From an uncultured Porphyromonadaceae bacterium (GTDB taxonomy: Bacteria; Bacteroidota; Bacteroidia; Bacteroidales; Muribaculaceae), in the NCBI GenBank assembly GCA_947176585.1, contig CAMWRI010000002.1, positions 1 to 41,440 of the forward strand: a stretch of 41,440 bases of DNA. The letters are read 5' to 3'. Under the pieces are notes generated by a model that was not told the DNA's origin, did not search any database, and saw only the letters and a program-made list of their open reading frames with translations. The position numbers and the translations under genes were made by a program. Positions 1-40,048 of this stretch are shown here, in pieces. The stretch's first letter is position 1. Each line of letters opens with the position of its first letter.

Positions 1-993
1 AGTGGGGGGAACTTCACCGGCTTCGCCCGAGAATGTCATTTTGCTAATCTGGGCATTGAAGTTGTTGGAAGTGGCGAGACGCAGAGCAGTGCCCTTTGCC
101 TGATAAGCTGCGGGGAGGTTGAAAGTGAAGTCGGCATCCTTAGCGTCGAGCTTGAGATCGCTTACGATGGCATCTCCATTAACAACAGACAGTGTAACGG
201 TTACGTTGGTAGAAGCATTGTTGCCGGTGTGAATAGTAATGGATTTGGTGTCGATAGGAAGTGTGAAATCCATATAGGCTTTGCCGGTGTAATTTTTACC
301 GCTAATCTGCAGGTATTTGCCTTGGTAGTTACCGGCCTTGCAGTTTACGAAAGTGAAATCCACACCATCGATGGTGGCATCAGTGGCGGTCTCAGATTCA
401 GTAGAAGGCAGAAGATCTGCATTGGCGTCGGTGGAGAAGTCTACTACTACACCATCTCCAACGGGATCGGGCGTGGGATCGGGCGTGGGATCGGGCGTGG
501 GATCAGGAGTGGGATCGGGGTCCTCGCCGGCTTCGCCGGTGGTGATTACCATGGAAGCCACGCGCAGCTGCTTGCCGGCACCATCGAAAGTGAGAGTGCT
601 CTGGGGGGTGGCTGCGGTGATGGTGAATTTACCTCCATCGAAAGCCGAAACGGTCCAGCCGTCGGAAGCGCTGGCCTCGGTGGCTTTGTTGCCGTTGGAG
701 TTGATAGTTACTTCTACCTTGCTGAAAGTCACGCCTTCAGGAGCGGTAATGTGGAGCTTAGCGCCTGCATAGATGCGGATGGAATACTGGTCGGGTTTAA
801 CGAGGGCTGTAGTCGAGCTGTTCTTTTCGAGTAGGAGCGAGTAGCCTTCCACGGTACCCTTGATATTGTCGCCGTCCTCGGTCCAGGTGTAGTTCTCCCA
901 AACCTTGTCGGCGCCAGGCAGGGTTACGCTTTCAGCGCTTGCAGCGGCGCAGATGCCGAGCACCATTGCCAAAGAGAGTAAAAATTTCTTCAT
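1..993 (-). CDS. Secreted/surface protein, 3' end cut by window edge; signal peptide MKKFLLSLAMVLGICAAASA, two beta-rich regions joined by a (PDPT)n linker
   Basis: Translated by hand on the minus strand from CAT at 991-993; open to base 1, so absent from the ORF track. Good signal peptide; a canonical -7 box lies upstream (1138-1145). Confidence 0.8.
   Translation of the reverse strand, partial: MKKFLLSLAMVLGICAAASAESVTLPGADKVWENYTWTEDGDNIKGTVEGYSLLLEKNSSTTALVKPDQYSIRIYAGAKLHITAPEGVTFSKVEVTINSNGNKATEASASDGWTVSAFDGGKFTITAATPQSTLTFDGAGKQLRVASMVITTGEAGEDPDPTPDPTPDPTPDPTPDPVGDGVVVDFSTDANADLLPSTESETATDATIDGVDFTFVNCKAGNYQGKYLQISGKNYTGKAYMDFTLPIDTKSITIHTGNNASTNVTVTLSVVNGDAIVSDLKLDAKDADFTFNLPAAYQAKGTALRLATSNNFNAQISKMTFSGEAGEVPPT
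463..520 (-). repeat. 12-bp in-frame tandem repeat (gggatcgggcgt)n encoding PDPT units
   Basis: Direct reading: gggatcgggcgt repeated three times, then the variants gggatcaggagt and gggatcgggg. Confidence 0.85.
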
Positions 994-1207: not shown

Positions 1208-1221
1208 ATGATATAGATAGC

Positions 1222-1406
1222 GGGCCGGAGGCTCGCCCGTTTGTTAACCCCGTGCGGACGCGCGGGGTAGTAATGTCCCCGGTAAGCAGCCCCGGAGGGG
1301 GTGACTTTCTCGATCTCGCCGGTCACCCCCTCCGGGGCTGTAGCTTATTTTAGGCTTGTACCCCGTGCGTCCGCACGGGGTTAACAAGAGAAAGGGCCTC
1401 CGGCCC
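1222..1406. repeat. Triple-nested palindromic element, copy 1
   Basis: Outer arms 1222-1232/1396-1406 (11/11), middle arms 1241-1268/1360-1387 (27/28), inner arms 1288-1305/1322-1339 (18/18). Confidence 0.9.
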
Positions 1407-1434
1407 ATCAAGGAAATACAAATCGTTGCCGATT

Positions 1435-1470
1435 TTTTTTAGTTAAAAGTGGAGCGGAGTGTGAAATAAT
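1435..1470. repeat. 36-bp direct repeat copy 2
   Basis: ttttttagttaaaagtggagcggagtgtgaaataat; one mismatch to 1172-1207. Confidence 0.9.
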
Positions 1471-1474
1471 GTGG

Positions 1475-1482
1475 TAACTTTG
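1475..1482 (+). promoter_or_regulatory. -7 box TAACTTTG, only 7 nt before the acyltransferase ATG
   Basis: Exact TAnnTTTG match; no clear -33 TTTG at the expected spacing. Confidence 0.55.
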
Positions 1483-1489
1483 CTGCGCA

Positions 1490-2545
1490 ATGAAAACCAA
1501 CGCTGCAATATCAGGCGACGGCCGCATCCTGTGGATGGATGCAATGCGCGGTTTCAGTATCATTCTGGTGGTGCTGGGCCACGTGCTTCAGCGTATGGGT
1601 TTAGGTGATGAAAACACTGCGCTCAGTTCGCTGCTCATCACATTCAGGATGCCGCTTTTCTTCTTTGTGAGCGGATTTTTCTCGTTTCGCAGCCGTGACT
1701 GGTGGACTCGTTCGCGGCTGGCCGACATTCTGCGCCGCAAGTTCACGGCGCAGATTTTGGGGGCGATAATATTTTTCTGTATGTATGCCTATTTGACGCA
1801 GCCGCGCATCAATTTTTCAGATGGGCTTGCATGGTATTGGTTCACCGTAGCACTTTTTCAGATGTATTTGCTTTATGTTGCGGTGACGCTCGCATGCCGG
1901 CGGCTGCGCCCGGGTGTGAGTATAGTAGTGCTCGCGGTGTTGGCCTGTGTGTTATTGGCAGGCAAATTCGTGCTGCCGGTCAATACTCTTACCAAGGTTT
2001 GTGAATGGCATAAGGTGTCGTATTATATGCAATTCTTTGTGCTGGGGCTCGCTGCGGCACAATACCGCAAGCGTTTTTTTGCATTGATGGCGTCAAACGC
2101 TTTTGCCACCGTGGTGATTATTAGTCTGGTGGCGTCTATATTCATATGGCGTGCAATAGTGGGCGGTATTCCCCGTTATTACGATTCCATATGGTACATT
2201 CTTGTGAAAGGCGAGGCTATGCGCTACCTGGGTCTGGCAGTGGTGGTCATAATGTTCTACGGTATGGCGGATTACTGGAATCGCGACACGCGGCTCACGC
2301 GCCTGATGAACTACACGGGCCGCCGCACGCTCGATGTCTATTATATCCACTACTTTTTTCTGCCCAAGTTGCTGTTTATGAAGCGCGTGCTGCTGCCCGA
2401 CAACCGCTTTGTGCTGCAACTTCTCGTGGCGGGCATCATCACGGCAATGGTGGTGATGATGAGCCTGGTGGTGAGCGCCATACTGCGCCGCAGCCCCCTG
2501 CTGCGCACCTTCCTCTTCGGATTGCGGCCGGAGCGCGGAGCTTGA
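1490..2545 (+). CDS. Acyltransferase 3 family integral membrane protein
   Basis: 351 aa; N-terminal WMDAMRGFSIILVVLGHVLQ motif and multiple TM segments typical of Acyl_transf_3. Confidence 0.88.
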   Translation: MKTNAAISGDGRILWMDAMRGFSIILVVLGHVLQRMGLGDENTALSSLLITFRMPLFFFVSGFFSFRSRDWWTRSRLADILRRKFTAQILGAIIFFCMYAYLTQPRINFSDGLAWYWFTVALFQMYLLYVAVTLACRRLRPGVSIVVLAVLACVLLAGKFVLPVNTLTKVCEWHKVSYYMQFFVLGLAAAQYRKRFFALMASNAFATVVIISLVASIFIWRAIVGGIPRYYDSIWYILVKGEAMRYLGLAVVVIMFYGMADYWNRDTRLTRLMNYTGRRTLDVYYIHYFFLPKLLFMKRVLLPDNRFVLQLLVAGIITAMVVMMSLVVSAILRRSPLLRTFLFGLRPERGA

Positions 2546-2548
2546 ACC

Positions 2549-2734
2549 GGGCCGGAGGCCCGCACTATTGTTAACCCCGTGCGGACGCGCGGGGTATTTT
2601 GGTACATAGGCAAGCAGCCCCGGAGGGGGTGACTTTACCGATAGCACCGGGCACCCCCTCCGGGGCTGAATCCCAATTAAGGCTTGCACCCCGTGCACCC
2701 GCACGGGGTTAACAAGAGGATGGGCCTCTGGCCC
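2549..2734. repeat. Triple-nested palindromic element, copy 2
   Basis: Outer arms 2549-2559/2724-2734, middle 2568-2595/2688-2715, inner 2616-2633/2650-2667; same arm sequences and order as 1222-1406, with different spacers. Confidence 0.9.
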
Positions 2735-2789
2735 AAAGACCTGCCTAATTTTTTTGTGGAAAAGGGTACGATTGTCTTATATTTTTTTG

Positions 2790-6349: not shown

Positions 6350-6381
6350 CTGAAATTCAGGCGCGTCCCGTAATATTGGAT

Positions 6382-6399
6382 TTATAAGTCTTATAAAAT
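6382..6399. repeat. 9-bp repeat locus A: TTATAAGTC TTATAAAAT
   Basis: Two units between convergent genes. Confidence 0.5.
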
Positions 6400-22555: not shown

Positions 22556-22563
22556 CAAAGTTA
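22556..22563 (-). promoter_or_regulatory. -7 box TAACTTTG for the MFS gene
   Basis: CAAAGTTA on + strand, 65 nt upstream of start. Confidence 0.55.
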
Positions 22564-22578
22564 CGCATTTTTTTGATA

Positions 22579-22623
22579 TTATAAGATTTGTAAGTCTTAT
22601 AAGTCTTATAAATTTTACGAATT
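22579..22623. repeat. 9-bp repeat locus B, five units: TTATAAGAT TTGTAAGTC TTATAAGTC TTATAAATT TTACGAATT
   Basis: Unit-by-unit reading in one 9-bp register. Confidence 0.8.
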
Positions 22624-22628
22624 TTTTT

Positions 22629-31244: not shown

Positions 31245-31280
31245 CGCGCAGCGCAGCAAAATCCGCGCCCTATCCCGGGG

Positions 31281-31416
31281 AAATCTCGCGCGGAGGCGCA
31301 GAGATTTTTATATTGATTATAAGATTTAGAGATCTTATAAGTCTTATAATTCTTATAAATCTTATATAATTTCTCTGCGGCTCTGCGCGAGATTTCCCTG
31401 AATATGCGCGAGATTT
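31281..31416. repeat. Composite repeat, locus C: GC-rich arm, six 9-bp units, inverted GC-rich arm
   Basis: Arms 31281-31304 / 31372-31395 (22/24 inverted match) flank 9-mers at 31317-31370; 31372-31416 is the exact reverse complement of 39911-39955. Confidence 0.85.
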
Positions 31417-31449
31417 GCTATGATACGCTTGCTTTTGGAAAATATTTGC

Positions 31450-36030: not shown

Positions 36031-36065
36031 CCTCCCCCGGCTTCGTGCCGAGGGAGGTTTTTTTT
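36031..36065 (+). terminator. Intrinsic terminator of the adhesin-like gene
   Basis: CCTCCCCCGGC TTCGT GCCGAGGGAGG followed by T8. Confidence 0.8.
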
Positions 36066-36108
36066 ATAAGTCTTATAAGTCTTATAAGTTTTATAAATCT
36101 TATAAATT
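36064..36108. repeat. 9-bp repeat locus D, five units: TTATAAGTC x2, TTATAAGTT, TTATAAATC, TTATAAATT
   Basis: Direct reading; begins in the terminator T-run and enters the 3' end of the CDS at 36100. Confidence 0.9.
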
Positions 36109-37065
36109 TTCTCGGTGCTCCGGCTCTATTTCCAGCCGGTAGGCTTGGGTGATGGTGCAGCGGCCGCCCGCCTGGGCCTTGTGCACGTCGAGGCTGTCGT
36201 TGAGCACGCGGCCGCCCTGCTCGGTGGATATGCCGAAGTCGAAATAGCGGGCGCCGCTGTGGGAGGCCTCGGTGATCACGTGGTGGTATAGCGCGGGCAG
36301 CAGGCGCTCGCGGCGGGCTTCGTCGCCGGCGGCGATGTACTGCGAGTGCACCACGCGGCCCGTGTCGTACACCACCATGCCTGCCAGCATGCGCCCGTCG
36401 CGGGTGGCGGCGTATAGGCGGATGTTGCCGGGGAAGCGGTGCCGCAGCAGCTCCATTTCCTGAAGGGAGTGCACGGGGGCCACGTCGTGGCGCGCGGCCA
36501 GCACGGCTGTGAGCAGCTGCCAGAACTCGTCCCAGGCCTCGGAGGGGCCGAATTGCACATCGCTGCGTGCCGCGCGGTTGATCACGTTGTGGCTGTTTCG
36601 GTCGAGCAGCGGGGGTGCCTGCAGGTCGATCGTGGAGGATGCTCCCGTGGCACACACGGCTGCTCCCATGCGCCACAGGGCGTACAGGTCTTCCTCGGCG
36701 GGCTGGCGGTGGTAGATGTGGGGCACGGGGCGGTAGATGAGTTCGGTGAGTCCTTCGCCGCGCATGTGTTCGGCGAGGAGGCCGAAAATTTCGAGCATCA
36801 CGGCAGCCGTGACACGGCGCTGCGCCATGAGCCAGCCGCCGTAGCTCAGGCCGTTGTGGCTGGCCAGCACTGTGCCGGAGGTGTGGGCCGGAAGCACGGC
36901 CAGCAGGCGCCCGGCATGATCGCTGGCCATCAGGGAATGGTCCGCGAAGCGGTGGGCGTGGTAGTCCATGTAGGCGCGGCGATGCAGGAAGGTGCCGTTG
37001 CGGGAGGCGTCCACGAAGGCGTCCCACTCGGCGGCGCGGGCCGGTGTGTAGCGCTCTATGGTCAT
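36100..37065 (-). CDS. FemAB-like / GNAT-fold acyltransferase
   Basis: GTFLHRRAYMDYHAHRFADHSLM, NGLSYGGW, ARYFDFGISTEQGG motifs. Confidence 0.78.
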   Translation of the reverse strand: MTIERYTPARAAEWDAFVDASRNGTFLHRRAYMDYHAHRFADHSLMASDHAGRLLAVLPAHTSGTVLASHNGLSYGGWLMAQRRVTAAVMLEIFGLLAEHMRGEGLTELIYRPVPHIYHRQPAEEDLYALWRMGAAVCATGASSTIDLQAPPLLDRNSHNVINRAARSDVQFGPSEAWDEFWQLLTAVLAARHDVAPVHSLQEMELLRHRFPGNIRLYAATRDGRMLAGMVVYDTGRVVHSQYIAAGDEARRERLLPALYHHVITEASHSGARYFDFGISTEQGGRVLNDSLDVHKAQAGGRCTITQAYRLEIEPEHRENL

Positions 37066-39888: not shown

Positions 39889-39910
39889 CAAAAAATAAAT
39901 CTTATATAAG

Positions 39911-40004
39911 AAATCTCGCGCATATTCAGGGAAATCTCGCGCAGAGCCGCAGAGATTTTTTTTGATTATCAGGTTTATAAATCTTATAAGTCTTATAAAT
40001 CTTA
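39911..40004. repeat. Composite repeat, locus E: GC-rich module plus 9-bp units, cut by the IS
   Basis: AAATCTCGCGC at 39911 and 39932; 9-mers TTATCAGGT TTATAAATC TTATAAGTC TTATAAATC from 39966 to 40001; the next unit runs into the IS end. Confidence 0.8.
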
Positions 40005-40048
40005 TATTGCTGTCCGATAAAAATCCTATCAACTCATAAAGCAAGGCT

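Follow-up and report, generated by a model that had tools for sequence, protein, structure and literature searches.

The TnpA protein of IS200/IS605 elements is a Y1 dimer with specificity for single-stranded DNA hairpins, and it cleaves DNA by means of its tyrosine. A related organisation is found in REPINs, or BIMEs, and their RAYTs (TnpAREP, class 2 Y1 proteins with a Y---NP signature), where gene-less populations of inverted dimers of short extragenic palindromes, with one hairpin per half, coexist with a low-copy Y1 gene per type. In TIRtrons, or TIRYTs, the Y1 gene lies within long inverted repeats, which form dispersed families as well, and the description of these elements includes class 2 proteins and a GGGGWSAS motif (Di Nocera 2013, PMC3733652). 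According to a later study, the 26 described TIRYTs belong to subclasses 2.1 (20 elements) and 2.2 and 2.5 (6 elements), and none belongs to 1.2 (PMC6006769). Subclass 1.2 of TnpA-Y1 was described in 2018 as lying near IS200/IS605. It is defined by the signature Y---Q--HH and its members are said to be generally devoid of typical IS200 terminal structures, IS-type ends or IS properties (PMC6006769), which left their substrate unknown. Finally, BrickBuilt of Porphyromonas gingivalis is a species-restricted intergenic MITE with structure and inverted ends, made of tandem 23-nt repeats (PMC4596501). Here, we analysed a window (the whole stretch of DNA under study, 41,440 nt) from an uncultured Muribaculaceae bacterium, which belongs to the same phylum. 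It contains two 185-bp palindromes around an acyltransferase-like gene, and each of them is very probably a non-autonomous element in which two Y1/HUH transposon ends are joined head to head and have no transposase gene between them.

The palindromes lie at positions 1222-1406 (copy 1) and 2549-2734 (copy 2) and are 84% identical to each other in an alignment over 188 bp. A repeat finder gave inverted arms of 48 nt in copy 1 (1222-1269 and 1359-1406, 85%) and of 47 nt in copy 2 (2549-2595 and 2688-2734, 83%). The coordinates and arms of both copies, as well as the pairing of copy 1 (11/11, 27/28, and 18/18 by direct reading), are those reported in the initial annotation of this DNA. A covariance model built on the half-element (R1) extends the inverted dimers slightly, to 1219-1409 and 2546-2737, and splits each of them into two triple-hairpin halves. 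In copy 1, the left half (1219-1306, plus strand, 90.2 bits) has its hairpins, also seen in the DNA fold, at 1221-1235 (HP1), 1248-1267 (HP2), and 1290-1300 (HP3), and the right half (1321-1409, minus strand, 94.0 bits) has them in mirror order at 1327-1337 (HP3'), 1361-1380 (HP2'), and 1394-1406 (HP1'). The corresponding hairpins of copy 2 are at 2548-2562, 2575-2594, and 2618-2628 in the left half (2546-2634, plus strand, 92.0 bits; DNA fold), and at 2655-2665, 2689-2708, and 2722-2734 in the right half (2649-2737, minus strand, 88.6 bits).

Copy 1 sits between a minus-strand gene starting at about 993 and the ATG of the acyltransferase gene (1490), and copy 2, as the initial annotation had it, starts 3 bp past the stop codon TGA of the latter (2543-2545). 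This gene (1490-2545, plus strand) encodes a membrane protein of 351 aa, whose function we give as originally named, and it is a resident of the locus lying outside the elements. Among 49 genomes of the genus, its only close orthologue is that of G023; the other matches are 27-32% identical. Copy 1 is further flanked by a 50-nt direct repeat on the plus strand, identified by the repeat finder and by comparison with G023, whose left copy is at 1164-1213 and whose right copy (1427-1476) continues into TAACTTTGC, which looks like the promoter of the acyltransferase gene.

The half-element has about 89 nt and is a chain of three hairpins. HP1 (GGGCC-GGA-GGCCC) is followed by a linker ending in TTTTGTTAACC, by HP2 (CCCCGTGC-GGAC-GCACGGGG), by a spacer of about 25 nt, and by HP3 (CCCC-GGA-GGGG, in a longer form AGCCCC-GGA-GGGGTGTAC). 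We aligned 18 halves from the genome of the window (G000, a draft assembly of 2.4 Mb, split into 185 contigs and 90% complete) and found the three hairpins paired in 97.2% of the cells, with 25 double-change cells versus 7.7 in shuffles. This covariation signal dropped to near zero when the partners were slid by 1-3 columns. Two alternative folds had been proposed for the element, a chain of short hairpins and one long cruciform. The first is the conserved one: the three local hairpins covary and halves occur alone. The arms of the dimers show no co-evolution, and a model of the long cruciform was tested and not favoured. Furthermore, when left halves of different copies are compared, they agree at 95-100% of the stem positions, but a left half and its own right half agree at only 82-88%; hence, it is the chain of local hairpins that is conserved, and the long cruciform is a consequence of the inverted arrangement. 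In the dimers of contigs C176, C132, and C28, HP1 has stems of the CCGGG type at one end and of the CAGAG type at the other. The 18 halves have no conserved GTAG beside the hairpins, and we found neither a cleavage site nor a conserved flanking motif outside HP1.

These elements belong to a repeat family, in line with the structured repeat proposed initially, and the condition that would have spoken against that proposal, an element limited to the two window copies, does not hold. Model R1 identified 18 clear halves in G000 (84 to 104 bits), together with several degraded ones, and a DNA search of this genome with the window elements returned many partial matches. Complete or damaged inverted dimers are present in contigs C176, C132, C28, C18, and C168, in addition to the two of the window, and solo halves, which are about as common as dimers, in C13, C48, C75, C158, C32, and C177. 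The dimers are 185-230 bp long, and all copies of the family were found to be intergenic by inspection, the overlapping ORFs of the mechanical list looking spurious. Such dispersed intergenic inverted dimers of short palindromes have the organisation of REP and REPIN sequences. As the dimers are almost perfect inverted repeats, 185-230 bp long and intergenic, they could also represent a MITE that has long terminal inverted repeats and depends on a conventional DDE transposase for its movement. We regard this as quite unlikely, since solo halves are about as frequent as dimers, conservation acts on a covarying hairpin chain, no short target duplication was seen at site 2, and the gene found inside the elements of relatives (see below) encodes a Y1/HUH transposase.

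Several other repeats were observed. The islands L028, L030, L032, L036, and L039 of G000 are mosaics of several palindromic families, which include two further triple-hairpin families, and they also hold a GTAGGGACGC...GCGTCCGC module resembling a GTAG-tagged REP. In L038 (contig C168 of G000, 2447-2538), one end is chimeric, with an HP1 and linker of the G023 type joined to HP2 and HP3 of the window family, which suggests recombination between types of ends. The window itself contains a second repeat system (6371-6396, 22560-22626, 31278-31421, 36033-36120, and 39892-40022) where CTCGCGCAGAGGCGCAGAG arms, and their inverse, surround arrays of the 9-mer TTATAAGTC; these arms also frame many other palindromic islands in G000 and G023. 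At one orthologous site (L062 in G023 and L029 in contig C176 of G000), the outer arms CTCGCGCAGAG...AAAATAAGTTGTTGAAAA are common and the inner palindromes differ, as if the contents had been swapped inside a conserved frame.

The closest relative, G023 (71% complete), lacks the element at both window sites, which answers the question of empty orthologous loci in terms of presence and absence. The acyltransferase gene, with a protein 96% identical, and its two neighbours are all present there in unchanged order. Other sites of G000 are empty in G023 or occupied by other modules, e.g., those of C177, C28, C32, and C168. The 50-nt direct repeat around copy 1 (88% identity, promoter-like DNA) far exceeds a usual target duplication and is single in G023, and copy 1 may therefore have been lost there through recombination. 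At site 2, where no short target-site duplication was seen, G023 carries CCGGGACAGAGG and then GGGCTTAACA, resembling the outer parts of the element. This may be a deletion scar, so that the difference may reflect either gain in G000 or loss in G023.

The comparison with G023 bears on two other explanations. The initial annotation suggested that the pair of elements could delete or mobilise the acyltransferase gene, which is not supported. The first explanation is that the two elements and the gene form one mobile unit. The inverted repeats do bracket the gene (flank score of 121) and the latter is found at high identity in only two genomes of the genus. However, G023 has the gene in the same place, with conserved neighbours and no elements, which shows that the elements do not carry it, and we give next to no credence to such a unit, unless the possible scar at site 2 of G023 proves to be what is left of a formerly complete one. 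Integron attC sites and gene cassettes were also considered and rejected, as the core sites do not fit on reading and the gene stays put without the elements in G023. The second explanation is a non-mobile regulatory RNA of the host (a 3'-end stabiliser, an attenuator, or a bidirectional terminator) maintained by selection on RNA structure. Predicted RNA folds are indeed very stable, with -150.6 kcal/mol for copy 1 (z = -16.4 relative to dinucleotide shuffles) and -135.8 kcal/mol for copy 2 (z = -13.0), the copies are intergenic, their hairpins covary, and copy 2 directly follows a stop codon. T-G wobbles outnumber A-C mismatches by 8 to 2 on the top strand of the half, a weak indication from a hand count of independent events. 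Yet, the closest relative has no element at the same genes, the sequence family is private and sits in nested repeat islands, inverted copies surround transposase genes, and copy numbers differ among genomes. A dedicated regulatory RNA is thus improbable, although a secondary effect of the element on transcripts is possible.

By BLAST, the sequence family of the element is private to G000; its architecture recurs in sister species. BLAST searches in 60 relatives gave no match at 1e-4, Rfam returned only matches far below the gathering scores, and a literature search with the repeat sequences gave nothing relevant. Exact-pattern scans of genome contigs found three matches (two in named sphingomonads and one in an unidentified bacterium), the pattern being nearly absent from GTDB genomes, and those of viral contigs, phages, and plasmids found none. 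In contrast, a search of the remaining 48 genomes of the genus with the covariance model recovered this architecture, with other stem sequences, in 14 of them. The best score among relatives reached 66 bits (G015), and matches were numerous in G015 (20), G006 (26), and G069 (27), many of them forming inverted pairs with short spacers. Over 56 matches, 15 of the 20 pairs have double changes, in 198 cells versus 47.5 in shuffles, in an alignment that was itself fitted to the structure.

In these relatives, ends of this type surround Y1 transposase genes. The clearest locus is L134 in contig C28 of G015, where an end at 154-246 (plus strand) and an inverted end at 710-802 (minus strand) enclose an intact ORF (265-708) encoding a Y1 transposase of 147 aa (PF01797, E=4e-25). 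This protein scores 77.6 bits with the NCBIfam IS200 model, whose cut-off is 55. Y1 genes above the Pfam cut-off are present in 36 of the 49 genomes of the genus, and the Y1 profile matches TnpA of ISHp608, a protein of solved structure, such that the HUH and Y motifs of both are aligned. When Y---Q--HH genes of the genus were testable, their inverted flanks beat all 100 shuffles in 27 of 35 cases, and reading many of these loci revealed the plan HP1, AACC-HP2, HP3, gene, and mirror image. Around one-quarter of the testable Y1 genes of the genus lack detectable inverted flanks. Flank scores of at least 40 were obtained for 36 of 62 Y1 genes (samples of the genus and phylum) versus 1 of 314 control blocks from the same loci. 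Elsewhere in the phylum, 14 of 29 genes have inverted flanks, some with three clear hairpins in the DNA fold, e.g., in G121 and G192. The linked proteins of relatives have HUH and Y---Q--HH motifs, about 150 aa, and a low copy number, and we assign the Y---Q--HH proteins to subclass 1.2 of TnpA-Y1 by signature, length, and taxonomic setting rather than by a published subclass profile.

These proteins also bear on a further possibility, namely that the repeats are REPINs carrying GTAG-type tags and belonging to a classic RAYT (TnpAREP, class 2). The dispersed intergenic inverted dimers of short palindromes, and a low-copy Y1 gene per family in relatives, would be expected of it. The hairpins lack a conserved GTAG tag, the associated proteins carry Y---Q--HH and not Y---NP, and that of G015 scores 25 bits with the NCBIfam REP-transposase model, far below its cut-off of 80. 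A classic RAYT is therefore very improbable.

We searched the ends of nine Y1 genes across ten genomes. Among the matches listed, ends match only their own genome, except that the end of G023 is also found in G000. The number of copies in the own genome varies widely, from 75 in G069, 64 in G006, 58 in G016, and 29 in G026 to 14 in G064, 13 in G035, 12 in G015, 10 in G023, and 2 in G036. In other families of the phylum, the ends have 49 copies in G184 and 18 in G088, and G098 and G205 have one end each. Most genomes with such Y1 genes hence hold dispersed copies of their own type of end, and the scarce ends of G036, G098, and G205 count against our reading. The organisation typical of TIRtrons, a Y1 gene in long inverted repeats that also form a repeat family, is thus present in the relatives and not in G000, where neither PF01797 nor profile A2 detected a Y1 gene (in a genome 90% complete). 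The two further triple-hairpin families of the G000 islands match ends of Y1 genes in G023 and in G036. Together with the window family, G000 thus hosts three or more families that lack a gene, and their counterparts with a transposase are in sister species, the nearest for the window family being in G015.

Our conclusion is that a subclass 1.2 TnpA-Y1 transposon gave rise to the window elements, which are its REPIN/MITE-like, non-autonomous derivatives, and we infer their mobility by a Y1 enzyme. The initial suggestion of a structured non-autonomous mobile element is thereby supported by the covariation, by the ends around a Y1 gene in relatives, and by the dispersed ends. The transposase would bind the triple-hairpin ends on single-stranded DNA, e.g., on the lagging-strand template, and would cut and rejoin the DNA at these ends. 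Any pair of ends could then be moved, with or without a gene inside, and gene-less dimers would spread in trans, as proposed for REPINs and RAYTs, and come to outnumber the gene, as REPINs do. In this way, the two copies of the window would have come to lie on either side of a resident gene. For the window family, the cognate pair of enzyme and ends is extrapolated from the nearest relative, G015. In G000, the cognate transposase would have been lost or have fallen into an assembly gap. As no Y1 gene was found there, the elements of the window family may be fossils that no longer move. On the other hand, several contigs of G000 end at or near such repeats, and the assembly would be expected to miss precisely a copy that still has its gene.

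The repeats of the window thus led to a candidate substrate for subclass 1.2, inverted triple-hairpin ends, many of them in matched sets of enzyme and ends, which makes the function of this subclass directly testable. In the open-access literature, we found no paper in which subclass 1.2 is connected with arrays of inverted hairpins at the termini or with non-autonomous dimers. Triple-hairpin ends also account for some of the palindromic repeats at which assemblies of these genomes break, and they provide many natural stem variants to study DNA recognition by a Y1 enzyme.

The elements share features with each of the systems described above. Like BrickBuilt, they are species-restricted, structured, intergenic repeats with inverted ends, but they lack its tandem 23-nt repeats (PMC4596501). 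Like REPINs, they are inverted dimers of short extragenic palindromes forming gene-less populations, with a low-copy Y1 gene per type in relatives, but their halves (~89 nt) comprise three hairpins where REPINs have one, there is no GTAG tag, and the linked protein is IS200-like, its signature being Y---Q--HH and not Y---NP. Their relatives resemble TIRYTs in having a Y1 gene within long inverted repeats that also form dispersed families (PMC3733652), whereas TIRYT proteins are TnpAREP of subclasses 2.1, 2.2, and 2.5 and those of the relatives match the IS200 model and carry Y---Q--HH. With subclass 1.2 (PMC6006769), the Y1 systems of the relatives share Y---Q--HH, a short core, a low copy number, and an occurrence in Bacteroidetes; that subclass was presented as generally without IS ends, and here we find inverted composite hairpin ends and non-autonomous copies. 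Finally, IS200/IS605 elements such as IS608 and ISDra2 likewise have an HUH-Y1 TnpA (by sequence homology to the solved TnpA) and hairpins at their ends. Their classic subterminal hairpins are not inverted, whereas the ends described here are mutually inverted, composite, and found in many gene-less dimers, and no TnpB was noticed in the loci that were read. On balance, we favour the view that the Y---Q--HH (subclass 1.2) enzymes of this phylum form a third single-strand mobile system beside IS200/IS605 and RAYT-REPIN, the substrate of which would be an inverted pair of three-hairpin ends, with fast-changing stems, a conserved architecture, enzyme-specific ends, and gene-less dimers that build mosaic palindrome islands.
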